This document shows positions 18,806-21,997 of a stretch of DNA of 33,007 nucleotides, piece by piece. The notes below the pieces were generated by a model that was given only the letters and a program-made list of their open reading frames with translations, ran no database searches and was not told the DNA's origin. Each line of letters begins with the position of its first letter. The stretch's first letter is position 1. Location of the stretch: the NCBI GenBank assembly GCA_020832495.1, contig JAFIEP010000032.1, forward strand, positions 1-33,007, read 5' to 3'. The DNA comes from Acidimicrobiia bacterium. GTDB lineage: Bacteria; Actinomycetota; Acidimicrobiia; Acidimicrobiales; Acidimicrobilacustridaceae. Made by a program: the position numbers and the translations under genes.

Positions 18806-18901
18806 CGGGACCTCGAAGCGGGAGTGCACGCCCGCATGGTGGCACCGCTGGCCATCCCGACGCACCACGAGGCTCACCCACGGGCTAGAACTGAGGGACC
18901 C

Positions 18902-18977
18902 GCCCGGGTAGCTCAGGGGCGAGAGCAGCTGTCTTGTAAACAGCAGGTCGTGGGTTCGAATCCCACCTCGGGCTCCA
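18902..18977 (+). tRNA. tRNA-Thr (anticodon TGT)
   Basis: A complete cloverleaf. The acceptor GCCCGGG pairs with CTCGGGC (18967-18973), with one G-U pair. The anticodon stem GCTGT/ACAGC encloses CTTGTAA with TGT at 18935-18937, reading ACA. The T arm contains GTTCGAATC. CCA is encoded at 18975-18977. It lies just upstream of the ECF sigma operon. Confidence 0.97.
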
Positions 18978-19005
18978 CACACCGCAACATTTCGAGATCA
19001 ATCGC

Positions 19006-19034
19006 CATCCGAGGCGCCGAGCGCTCCGAACAAG
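19006..19034 (+). promoter_or_regulatory. ECF-type promoter of the sigma/RskA operon
   Basis: CATCC at 19006-19010, a 16-nt spacer, then CGAACAAG at 19027-19034. This resembles the SigK-type pattern known from mycobacteria (CCATCC ... CCGAAT). The same arrangement recurs at 20490-20518, so the sigma factor probably drives its own operon. Confidence 0.65.
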
Positions 19035-19069
19035 GAGTGTGCCCATCCTCTCCGCCACGCGGCGTGCAC

Positions 19070-19663
19070 ATGACCGCTGACCCCGACCCACCCCCGGCCG
19101 AGTCGACGTCCGACGCCGCGCTGGTCATCGCCGTCGCACGCGGCCGCCAAGAGGCACTGGCTGCGTTGTGGCGCCGTCACGGCGGCGTGGTGCACGGCCT
19201 CGCTCGCCGCCTGCTGCGCCGCGACGACCTGGCCGAGGACGTCAGCCAGGAGGTGTTCCTGAGCCTGTGGCGCCACCCCGAACGCTTCGATCCCCAACGG
19301 GGCTCGCTGCGGACGTTCCTGCTCACGACCTGCCACCGCCGGGCGGTGGACGTCATCCGTGCCGAGGAGGCACGCCGTAACCGTGAGCTGCGCGAGCAGC
19401 TCCAGGCGCCAGTTCCCACGGTCGAACTCGAACAAGCCTTCGCTGACGCCGCCGTGGCGGAACTGGTCCGCCACGCCCTCGGGCAACTCCCCGTCGAGGA
19501 GCGCCGAGCGATCGAGCTCGCCTACTGGGGCGGCCACACCTACCAGGAGGTTGCTCGCCTTCTCGAACAGCCGGAGGGCACCGTGAAGAGCCGCATCCGC
19601 GCCGGCATGCGCCGCCTCCGCGAGCTCATGGCCACTGCCGACAGCGAGGGGGTGGCGACATGA
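19070..19663 (+). CDS. ECF RNA polymerase sigma factor (SigK-like)
   Basis: 197 residues. Sigma region 2 spans about 20-95 (LAEDVSQEVFLSLWRHPERF, then FLLTTCHRRAVDVIRAEEAR, for -10 recognition and core binding). Region 4 spans about 132-190 (LGQLPVEERRAIELAYWGG, then TYQEVARLLEQPEGTVKSR, a helix-turn-helix for the -35). It directs RNA polymerase to stress promoters when freed from its anti-sigma factor. The ATG at 19070 is preferred. Upstream in-frame GTGs at 19037 and 19064 are possible, and no strong ribosome site decides. The stop overlaps the anti-sigma gene by four bases, the classic coupled sigma/anti-sigma layout. A matching promoter motif lies 36-64 bases upstream. Confidence 0.93.
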   Translation: MTADPDPPPAESTSDAALVIAVARGRQEALAALWRRHGGVVHGLARRLLRRDDLAEDVSQEVFLSLWRHPERFDPQRGSLRTFLLTTCHRRAVDVIRAEEARRNRELREQLQAPVPTVELEQAFADAAVAELVRHALGQLPVEERRAIELAYWGGHTYQEVARLLEQPEGTVKSRIRAGMRRLRELMATADSEGVAT

Positions 19664-20466
19664 GCTCCACCATCGACCCGATGGACCACTCGAACGTCGA
19701 GGCCCTGTTGGCCGCCTACGCGCTCGATGCCGTCACCGATGAGGAGCGCCGCGCCGTCGATGACCTGCTCGAGACGTCCGAGGATCTCCGCGCCGAGGTG
19801 GCCGACCACCTCGAGGTGGCGGCCCTGCTCGGCACCGTGCCTGACGATCCACCGGCAGCCGTGTGGGATCGGATCGCCGACCAGCTCGACGACCCGATCT
19901 CTGAACAGGTCTTCGAACGGGAACCGTCGGCGAACGCCGACGCCCACACCGTGCAGCCCGGCGCTGCCGATCGCCCCTCCGAGGTGGTGCCGATGCGACG
20001 CTCATCGTCGCCACAGCTCGGTGGCTGGCGTCTGCTGGCCGTCGCTGCGGTCGCCCTGGCCCTGGTGGCGGTGGGTGCATTGGTGGCGCGAGCAGTGGCA
20101 CCGACGACCGAACGCGACCTGGCCACCGAGGCGGTGACCGCCGCCGCCGAACCGGGGGCACGCACGTGGGAACTCCTCGGGGACGACGATCGTCGCCTGG
20201 CCACCGTCGTCCTGCGAGCCGACGGGGAAGGGATCCTCGTGGCCGACGACCTCCCACCCCTCGACGCGGCACGCACCTACCAACTGTGGGCGCTCGCCGG
20301 TCCGGACGGGTCGGTACCCATCTCGCTCGGGGTGCTCGGCGCGAACCCGGCGGCGGCTGCCTTCACCGCCGAGACGCCGGTGGCCGGCATGGCGCTCAGC
20401 ATCGAGGCTCGCGGTGGCGCCGTGGCGCCGGCCGACGGCCCGATCGCCGTTGCCGTGGCGGAGTGA
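19660..20466 (+). CDS. RskA-family membrane anti-sigma factor
   Basis: 268 residues. The N-terminal ~75 residues (ALLAAYALDAVTDEERRAVD, then DLLETSEDLRAEVADHLEVA) form the helical anti-sigma domain that holds the ECF sigma factor. It has no Cys residues, so it is not a zinc-type anti-sigma. One membrane helix lies at about 123-147 (WRLLAVAAVALALVAVGALVA). The outer RskA domain (about 150-268) includes RTYQLWALAGPDGSVPISLG. Release of the sigma factor is expected to need regulated cleavage by site-1 and Rip1-type proteases. It overlaps the sigma gene by four bases. Confidence 0.93.
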   Translation: MSSTIDPMDHSNVEALLAAYALDAVTDEERRAVDDLLETSEDLRAEVADHLEVAALLGTVPDDPPAAVWDRIADQLDDPISEQVFEREPSANADAHTVQPGAADRPSEVVPMRRSSSPQLGGWRLLAVAAVALALVAVGALVARAVAPTTERDLATEAVTAAAEPGARTWELLGDDDRRLATVVLRADGEGILVADDLPPLDAARTYQLWALAGPDGSVPISLGVLGANPAAAAFTAETPVAGMALSIEARGGAVAPADGPIAVAVAE

Positions 20467-20489
20467 TCGGAAAAACTTTCGGAATCGTG

Positions 20490-20518
20490 CATCCGATCGG
20501 CGTTCGGCAACGTACAAG
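20490..20518 (+). promoter_or_regulatory. Second ECF-type promoter motif, downstream of rskA
   Basis: CATCC at 20490-20494, 16 nt, then CGTACAAG at 20511-20518, almost identical in sequence and spacing to the motif before the sigma gene. It points rightwards into a gene-free stretch that ends at a strong hairpin (20636-20670). Confidence 0.55.
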
Positions 20519-20635
20519 TAGGTGTAGGGCGCCGAGCAGCGAATCGACGACCTGCAGCAGAGCGGACACCGAACCGCAGTCGGCGGTCCGCCAGTTCCCT
20601 GGGGCTTTCTCGGGCTCCGCTCCAGGGGCGATGTC

Positions 20636-20670
20636 ATCGGGGCGGCGATCCACTGGGTCGCCGCCCCGAT
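20636..20670. terminator. Strong hairpin, bidirectional terminator
   Basis: ATCGGGGCGGCGA (20636-20648) pairs perfectly with TCGCCGCCCCGAT (20658-20670) around a 9-nt loop. It lies between the rightward sigma/RskA operon and the leftward YibE/F gene, whose stop is at 20675. There is no T-run, as is common in GC-rich actinobacteria. Confidence 0.75.
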
Positions 20671-20674
20671 GGCG

Positions 20675-21997
20675 TCACGCCACGGCGTCGGCCGAGGGGG
20701 TGGCGTGGCGGGCGGTCAGCGCCGCCAACCAGGTGGTCAACGGGACGGCAGCCACCAGGCCGATGCTGCCTACCAAGGTACGCACGATCTCGGTCGCCAC
20801 GATCTCCCCGTTGGCAATGGCGGCCAACGGCTGGTCGGTGGCAGCGAACAGCAGGAACAAAGGCATGGCCGCACCGGCGTAGGCCAGCACCAGTGTGTTG
20901 ACCGTGGAGGCAACGTGGTCCCGGCCGATGCGTATCCCGGCGGCATACAGCTCAGCGGTACTCATGCGGTCGTTGGCCGCCCGCAACTCGAACACCGCCG
21001 AGGCCTGGGTGACGGTCATGTCGTCGAGCGCCCCGAGTGCGCCGATGATGATCCCGGCGAGCAGCAGACCCCTCAGGTCGATGGTGCCCGACACCTGGCG
21101 GAGGAACGTCACCTCGTCGCCGCCGAGGCCGGTCAGGTTGGCCAATGACACGAAGATCACCGACAGTGCAATGGTCAGCGCCAGCGCGCCGAGGGTACCG
21201 AGCAATGCCACCGTGCTCATGGCGGTGAAGCCATGCGCCAGGTAGATGGCCAGGAACGAGATGGCGGCCGCGGTGACCACTGCCACCAGCACGGCGTCGG
21301 AATCGTCGAGCAGCGCCGGGACGGTGAAGACCAACAGCACCGCCAGGCTCAACGCCAGTCCCACCAGCGCAGCCAGCCCTCGTAGGCGCCCCAGCAACAC
21401 GACAGCGAGGGCGAAGAGCACGGCCAGCCAGAACAGCACCGAGGTCCGCTGTCGGTCCGAGAACCGGTAGCGGAACTCGGGTTCGGCGGCGGCGTCGTAG
21501 GACAGCACCACCACCTCCCCCTCGCGGAAGTCCGCCGAACCGGCGTCGAACACGTCGAGGCCAACGCTCAGCCCCTCGTCGGGCCCCTCGAGCAGCTCCA
21601 CCCGCAGCTGAGCGCACTGCAGACCGCTGTCGTCGACGATGGGCGCACCGGGACACGGCACCTCGTCGACCGCCCCGACCCGCGCGTCGAAGAAGGTGGT
21701 GGCGAAGCCGGGCAGCGGCGGCGGCGACTCGCCACTGGGCCACAGCGCCACCAGTCCGATCACCGTGGCGAACGCCAGCACAGCAGCAATGCCCCACAAC
21801 CATCGGTTGGTGGTCTCGGGGATGTCCAGCAGGTCGTCGCCGTGGCCGTGGCCGACGTGGGTGTGACCGGCCGGCGCCACATCGGAGACCGCCTCCCCCT
21901 CGCCGTCCGTCCCGCTCCCCCCGGTGGCGGCGTCAGCGGGGTCGTCGGGTTGGTGGGACCGGTCGTCGGGTTCGTCGGGCAGGTCGTCGGCGTCCAC
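20675..21997 (-). CDS. YibE/F family multi-pass membrane protein
   Basis: 440 residues. A long acidic, polar cytoplasmic start contains a His-rich patch (HTHVGHGHGDD, about 45-55). A first helix at about 66-87 is followed by a ~95-residue extracytoplasmic domain with two Cys (EVPCPGAP, LQCAQL). About seven further helices follow from residue 188, including GALGALDDMTVTQASAVFEL, the family hallmark. YibE/F proteins are membrane transporters of uncertain substrate. The His-rich tail suggests metal binding. The GTG at 21997 is the annotated start, and no clear ribosome site decides it. It lies 57 nt after the lipoprotein gene and may be co-transcribed with it. Confidence 0.88.
   Translation of the reverse strand: MDADDLPDEPDDRSHQPDDPADAATGGSGTDGEGEAVSDVAPAGHTHVGHGHGDDLLDIPETTNRWLWGIAAVLAFATVIGLVALWPSGESPPPLPGFATTFFDARVGAVDEVPCPGAPIVDDSGLQCAQLRVELLEGPDEGLSVGLDVFDAGSADFREGEVVVLSYDAAAEPEFRYRFSDRQRTSVLFWLAVLFALAVVLLGRLRGLAALVGLALSLAVLLVFTVPALLDDSDAVLVAVVTAAAISFLAIYLAHGFTAMSTVALLGTLGALALTIALSVIFVSLANLTGLGGDEVTFLRQVSGTIDLRGLLLAGIIIGALGALDDMTVTQASAVFELRAANDRMSTAELYAAGIRIGRDHVASTVNTLVLAYAGAAMPLFLLFAATDQPLAAIANGEIVATEIVRTLVGSIGLVAAVPLTTWLAALTARHATPSADAVA

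Follow-up and report, generated by a model that had tools for sequence, protein, structure and literature searches.

In mycobacteria, the promoter used by the ECF sigma factor SigK is of the CCATCC/CCGAAT type. A published study (PMC7509140) describes SigK sites as conserved across Actinobacteria, together with a mpt83-sigK-rskA cassette. According to the same study, mpt83 has been lost in Nocardia and cysteine-less SigK forms exist there, while the SigK cysteines are present in 94% of ECF18 and 56% of ECF19 members; the signal that activates SigK is stated to be unknown (PMC7509140). For Mycobacterium tuberculosis, published sigma consensus sequences are reported to predict poorly (PMC4821874). 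A search of titles and abstracts outside the subscription literature returned no link between SigK and a molybdopterin oxidoreductase, or between RskA and Acidimicrobiia.

A SigK-like sigma factor and its anti-sigma factor in Acidimicrobiia

We analyzed a 33,007-nucleotide stretch of DNA (the window) from an Acidimicrobiia bacterium, which constitutes the entire contig C59 of a 4.46-Mb genome in 147 contigs. The features of the locus are as follows.

19006..19034, + strand: P1, with CATCC (19006-19010, -35-like), N16 and CGAACAAG (19027-19034, -10-like); probable SigK-type promoter for the sigma-rskA operon
19070..19663, + strand: gene for a SigK-like ECF sigma factor of 197 aa, counted from the ATG at 19070 (the gene caller's start is the GTG at 19064)
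19660..20466, + strand: RskA-type anti-sigma gene, 268 aa, overlapping the sigma gene by 4 bases
20470..20481, + strand: element GAAAAACTTTCG, 8 bases ahead of the P2 CATCC; exact in genome G032, one mismatch in G033 and G034
20490..20518, + strand: P2, with CATCC (20490-20494), N16 and CGTACAAG (20511-20518); apparent counterpart of the relatives' fasciclin promoter, the gene missing here
20675..21997, - strand: yibE/F-like gene, convergent to P2 (YibE_F PF07907, E 5.5e-73)

A tRNA gene (18902-18974) ends 31 bases ahead of P1. The best solved-structure match of the sigma factor is SigK (4nqw, E 3.4e-29), and its best profile match is the curated SigK family NF007228, with 163.4 bits under a cut-off of 226. 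The positions of the SigK residues Cys133 and Cys183 are occupied by A and L, respectively, and both cysteines are missing in all 42 compared sigma sequences, the window's among them. We therefore name the protein SigK-like, as SigK is its nearest relative, yet it scores under the curated cut-off and lacks both cysteines. The anti-sigma protein contains the RskA C-terminal domain (PF10099, 55.8 bits against a cut-off of 29.4) and matches the RskA-type profile NF052375 (112 bits, cut-off 100), and its score for the RskA N-terminal domain PF22618 is 19.9 bits against a cut-off of 27.

Two motifs of high score in the window

A first-pass annotation of this DNA had proposed a pair of CATCC-N16 motifs around the operon. 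Both motifs were found exact (19006-19033 and 20490-20517), on the plus strand and with equal spacing, and the next base after each is G. With at most one mismatch to the motif, the window holds three matches, a number never reached in 100 shuffles (mean 0.51, maximum 2). A sigma-70-type consensus scan of 18850-20900 returned no promoter. In the whole genome, CATCC-N16-CGNACAA occurs exactly at six places, including P1 and P2; three of the remaining four are labelled within genes, and the fourth is C28:358. The shorter core CATCC-N16/17-CGWAC occurs at 59 places, compared with 62 for the N19/20 spacing control. Since the wrong spacing yields as many matches, the bare core says little, and the motif does not by itself define the regulon directly, as had been suggested.

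We then scored the sites with a weight matrix whose training set was 25 sites preceding the relatives' sigma genes, with the window left out; the training sites were chosen by the consensus of the first-pass annotation, and two of them (L029 and L034) are weak. In the window, P1 scores 23.0 bits and P2 19.2 bits, with the next best site at 12.2 bits. In the genome, the scoring covered the fetched loci of the 59 core matches and hence core-type -10 boxes, among which only five sites reach at least 19 bits: C34:10470 (28.4 bits), C114:139 (24.3 bits), P1, C114:1741 (21.2 bits), and P2.

P1-like sites accompany the sigma gene across the order

Comparison of 42 sigma loci revealed a P1-like site (9 or 10 of 10, within 150 bases upstream) in 23 of them, including the window, each with a shuffle P of at most 0.05. 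The set comprised 30 loci from genomes, window included, and 12 named contigs, which are the closest named loci, metagenomic, and labelled Acidimicrobiales, Acidimicrobiia, Acidimicrobiaceae, Ferrimicrobium, Actinomycetes or Actinomycetota. In the other 19 loci, no site of at least 9 was found within the 150 upstream bases searched; several genus g12 loci scored as misses hold a site scoring 15 to 21 bits farther upstream, and L010 and L043 carry extra sites just beyond the 150-base search. By the matrix, 23 of 39 sigma genes in the annotated loci have an upstream site of at least 17 bits, a figure that is partly circular. The spacing is N17 in 21 of the 25 training sites and N16 in the window. 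A TTTCG or A-rich element was also considered as a general feature of the P1 sites and was unsupported on testing.

The recurrence of like sites in 23 of the 42 sigma loci argues that the local SigK-like ECF sigma factor regulates its own expression through P1, a reading that is well supported by this comparative footprint. The first-pass annotation had read the motif as the recognition site of an autoregulated local sigma factor, and for P1 this reading holds; the absence of the motif near orthologous sigma genes, which it had named as contrary evidence, was looked for, and the motif was present in those 23 loci.

P2 resembles a fasciclin promoter of related genomes

For 37 of the 42 loci, 400 readable bases were available beyond the rskA-like frame, and a site of at least 17 bits lies within these 400 bases in six: the window, G051 and four same-family genomes. 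Wider sampling added G028, G029, G033, and G034, giving eight same-family genomes with a post-rskA site (G011, G016, G028, G029, G032, G033, G034, and G035), all of genus g12 and with scores of 17.3 to 20.2 bits. In all eight, the site is followed by a gene for a fasciclin (MPT70/83-type) lipoprotein, the G033 copy being cut by the contig end. The fasciclin ATG lies 72 or 81 bases past the start of CATCC in the seven genomes read as sequence (in G011 and G035 it was read by eye, as the script took an earlier GTG). The -10 box of the g12 sites is CGGAG, versus CGTAC in the window. In G051, which belongs to another family, a 26.1-bit site is followed by a molybdopterin oxidoreductase gene and a fasciclin gene. 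Weak variants (7.2 to 11.5 bits) precede the fasciclin gene in G019, G020, and G013, and no site of 14-15 bits was found behind rskA in G025, G003, G005, G006, G009, and G014; the G024 contig stops too early for the post-rskA search.

The bases upstream of P2 are also shared with some of these relatives. Among 37 family genomes, the arrangement GAAAAACTTTCG-N8-CATCC occurs without a mismatch only in the window and G032 and with one mismatch in G033 and G034, in all four cases behind rskA; the other six matches of this type have two mismatches and are located elsewhere. Neither these 37 genomes nor the 80 relatives searched include another member of the window's own genus. When the 40 bases before P2 were compared with those of the relatives, the match was reached by none of 1000 shuffles for G032, G033, and G020, by 1 for G034, by 6 for G019, and by 37 for G016. 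No likeness was found to G011, G029, G035, G013, and G051 (189 to 747 of 1000 shuffles), and nine P1 sites taken as a control gave 165 to 1000 in the same test. The 12-base element (window 20470-20481; L277, L281, and L282) is partly palindromic in G033 and was not found with P1 sites.

Behind P2 itself, no plus-strand gene follows, so that the linked fasciclin target is missing in the window, and a blastx search for what might be left of a fasciclin or oxidoreductase gene gave no match better than chance. Given the position and upstream element common with the relatives, P2 appears to be the counterpart of their fasciclin promoter, and it looks like an orphaned target promoter whose fasciclin gene was lost here. 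The earlier description of twin motifs framing the operon does not fit P2, which stands apart from the sigma/anti-sigma operon: the site at this place in the relatives precedes a fasciclin gene, or in G051 the oxidoreductase-fasciclin pair, and in the window P2 faces a convergent gene.

Candidate targets elsewhere in the genome

As labelled, 9 of the 59 core matches are intergenic, and C114:1741 becomes a tenth after correction of an overextended gene call. In a position-filtered comparison of 30 loci per search, the intergenic share was 7/27 at the real spacing and 3/28 at the control spacing. The ATG directly after C114:1741 opens the gene for a 550-aa Oxidored_molyb-domain protein. Among the best 30 homologue loci of this gene (65 of 80 genomes matched), eight, that of the C114 gene among them, score higher at an upstream site than in any of their own 60 shuffles. 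This oxidoreductase gene stands directly before the sigma gene in G013 and G003 and is divergent from it in G063. C34:10470 lies 94 bases ahead of the ATG of a gene whose secreted product has an LPATG-like end (assigned by eye) and gave no Pfam match. The matrix, combined with the comparison with relatives, points to a few target genes, and the regulon probably includes the membrane-anchored molybdopterin oxidoreductase (C114) and the secreted protein (C34).

Two other high-scoring sites were rejected as promoters. C114:139 is within the 3' end of the oxidoreductase gene, and since a like sequence occurs at the equivalent place in two relatives, protein conservation explains it. This promoter-like 3' end of the oxidoreductase gene recurs in three genomes (L206 3069, L207 2928, and L208 2982, gene-oriented) as a false positive of motif scans. 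C147:46366 (18.1 bits) falls inside a fasciclin gene, past its ATG, and was set aside as chance. This fasciclin gene is one of two in the genome, located in the interior of contigs C134 and C147; no convincing site was found upstream of the C147 gene, and the 500 bases preceding the domain of the C134 gene remain open frame.

Of 423 other genes in the annotated loci, seven carry a site of at least 17 bits in the 190 upstream bases, and five of these seven, close to the sigma gene, encode lipoprotein, cupredoxin-like or ferritin-like products, a class assigned by Pfam for two (one matched) and by eye for the others. Fasciclin genes count 0 of 10 here, the caller having set their start codons too far downstream. 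Additional sites of this kind were seen ahead of such genes beside the relatives' sigma genes (L184 1194-2434, L186 3789-4627, L188 11538, and L191 2743-4427). The G005 locus (L199 5954-8128) carries two sigma/anti-sigma pairs of the SigK-like/RskA type in tandem.

Proposed model and alternative explanations

We propose that the SigK-like ECF sigma factor and the RskA-type membrane anti-sigma factor are transcribed from P1, which would be recognized by its own sigma factor, so that the sigma factor, once released, would amplify its own operon. The same sigma factor would also act at a second promoter, P2, whose equivalent in the relatives would drive the fasciclin lipoprotein behind rskA; here, the fasciclin gene would be gone from this place, with P2 and its upstream element retained. 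Taken together, self-recognition of P1, a fasciclin promoter without its gene at P2, and the C114 and C34 targets form the joint explanation that we consider likely. If active, P2 would give an untranslated RNA of about 150 nt ending at a hairpin before yibE/F. The folded structures in this stretch are as follows.

20597..20627, + strand: hairpin in the possible P2 transcript (fold)
20633..20673, no strand assigned: 19-pair hairpin between rskA/P2 and yibE/F (fold z -7.5), possible two-way terminator

The second hairpin has no T-run and is missing from the output of a consensus terminator scan, and no reading frame of note was found from about 20524 to this hairpin. P2 could instead have been retained for a functional SigK-dependent small RNA (about 20524-20673) rather than as a mere leftover; its score of 19.2 bits and the very stable hairpin that closes the stretch speak for this idea. 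However, without the terminal hairpin the stretch folds like its shuffles (z -0.51, 59/200), it has no Rfam match, and 12 of 198 genomes of the order match it, of which one is this genome and the rest show pieces of 27-58 bases. We regard such retention as unlikely, and assign as little weight to the combined scenario in which a fasciclin promoter that lost its gene now gives rise to a SigK-dependent small RNA acting on the envelope regulon or against yibE/F; a small RNA from P2 is possible but unsupported.

Recognition of P1 and P2 by a different ECF sigma factor of the genome, in which the sigma factor has 15 matches at E <= 0.001, is rather improbable, because the site accompanies the SigK-like sigma gene across the order and the next best sigma factor is merely 35% identical. 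The apparent gene loss would be an artifact if the contig were misjoined after P2 and the fasciclin gene were truly next, as the draft state of the assembly (147 contigs) and the gene order of the eight relatives could suggest; both fasciclin genes found sit inside other contigs, however, and we hold a misjoin to be quite improbable. The core matches are numerous and mostly within called genes, which could make the P2 motif a chance match, but P2 is among the only five sites of at least 19 bits, and its place and the GAAAAACTTTCG element are conserved, leaving chance a very slim prospect.

Comparison with known SigK-RskA systems

Under the preferred reading of P1 as self-recognized and P2 as a promoter left without its fasciclin gene, the SigK/RskA promoter code would extend into the order compared here. 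The sites suggest coherent envelope targets in this order, namely the molybdopterin oxidoreductase, fasciclin, cupredoxin, ferritin-like, and other lipoproteins. Because the signal of SigK is given as unknown in PMC7509140, this redox-looking target set offers a testable hint. P2 is likely an example of a promoter outliving its gene, and the locus also cautions that a bare two-box motif cannot delimit such a regulon.

The mycobacterial SigK-RskA systems and the mpt83-sigK-rskA cassette (PMC7509140) share with this locus a SigK-like sigma factor with an RskA-type anti-sigma factor, conserved SigK sites and, as proposed here, autoregulation. The fasciclin lipoprotein is a linked target in the relatives of the window, as in the cassette; unlike in the cassette, the relatives' target sits behind rskA, and it is absent in the window. 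In contrast to mycobacterial SigK, the window sigma factor has neither Cys133 nor Cys183 and falls under the curated SigK cut-off. Compared with mycobacterial SigK-RskA, the spacing is N16 in the window and mostly N17 in its relatives. Another parallel is with the cysteine-less SigK of Nocardia (PMC7509140), where both cysteines are likewise missing and the fasciclin/mpt83 gene is lost beside the operon; unlike in those Nocardia, with an RskA of ~81 aa, the RskA of the window is full length (268 aa).
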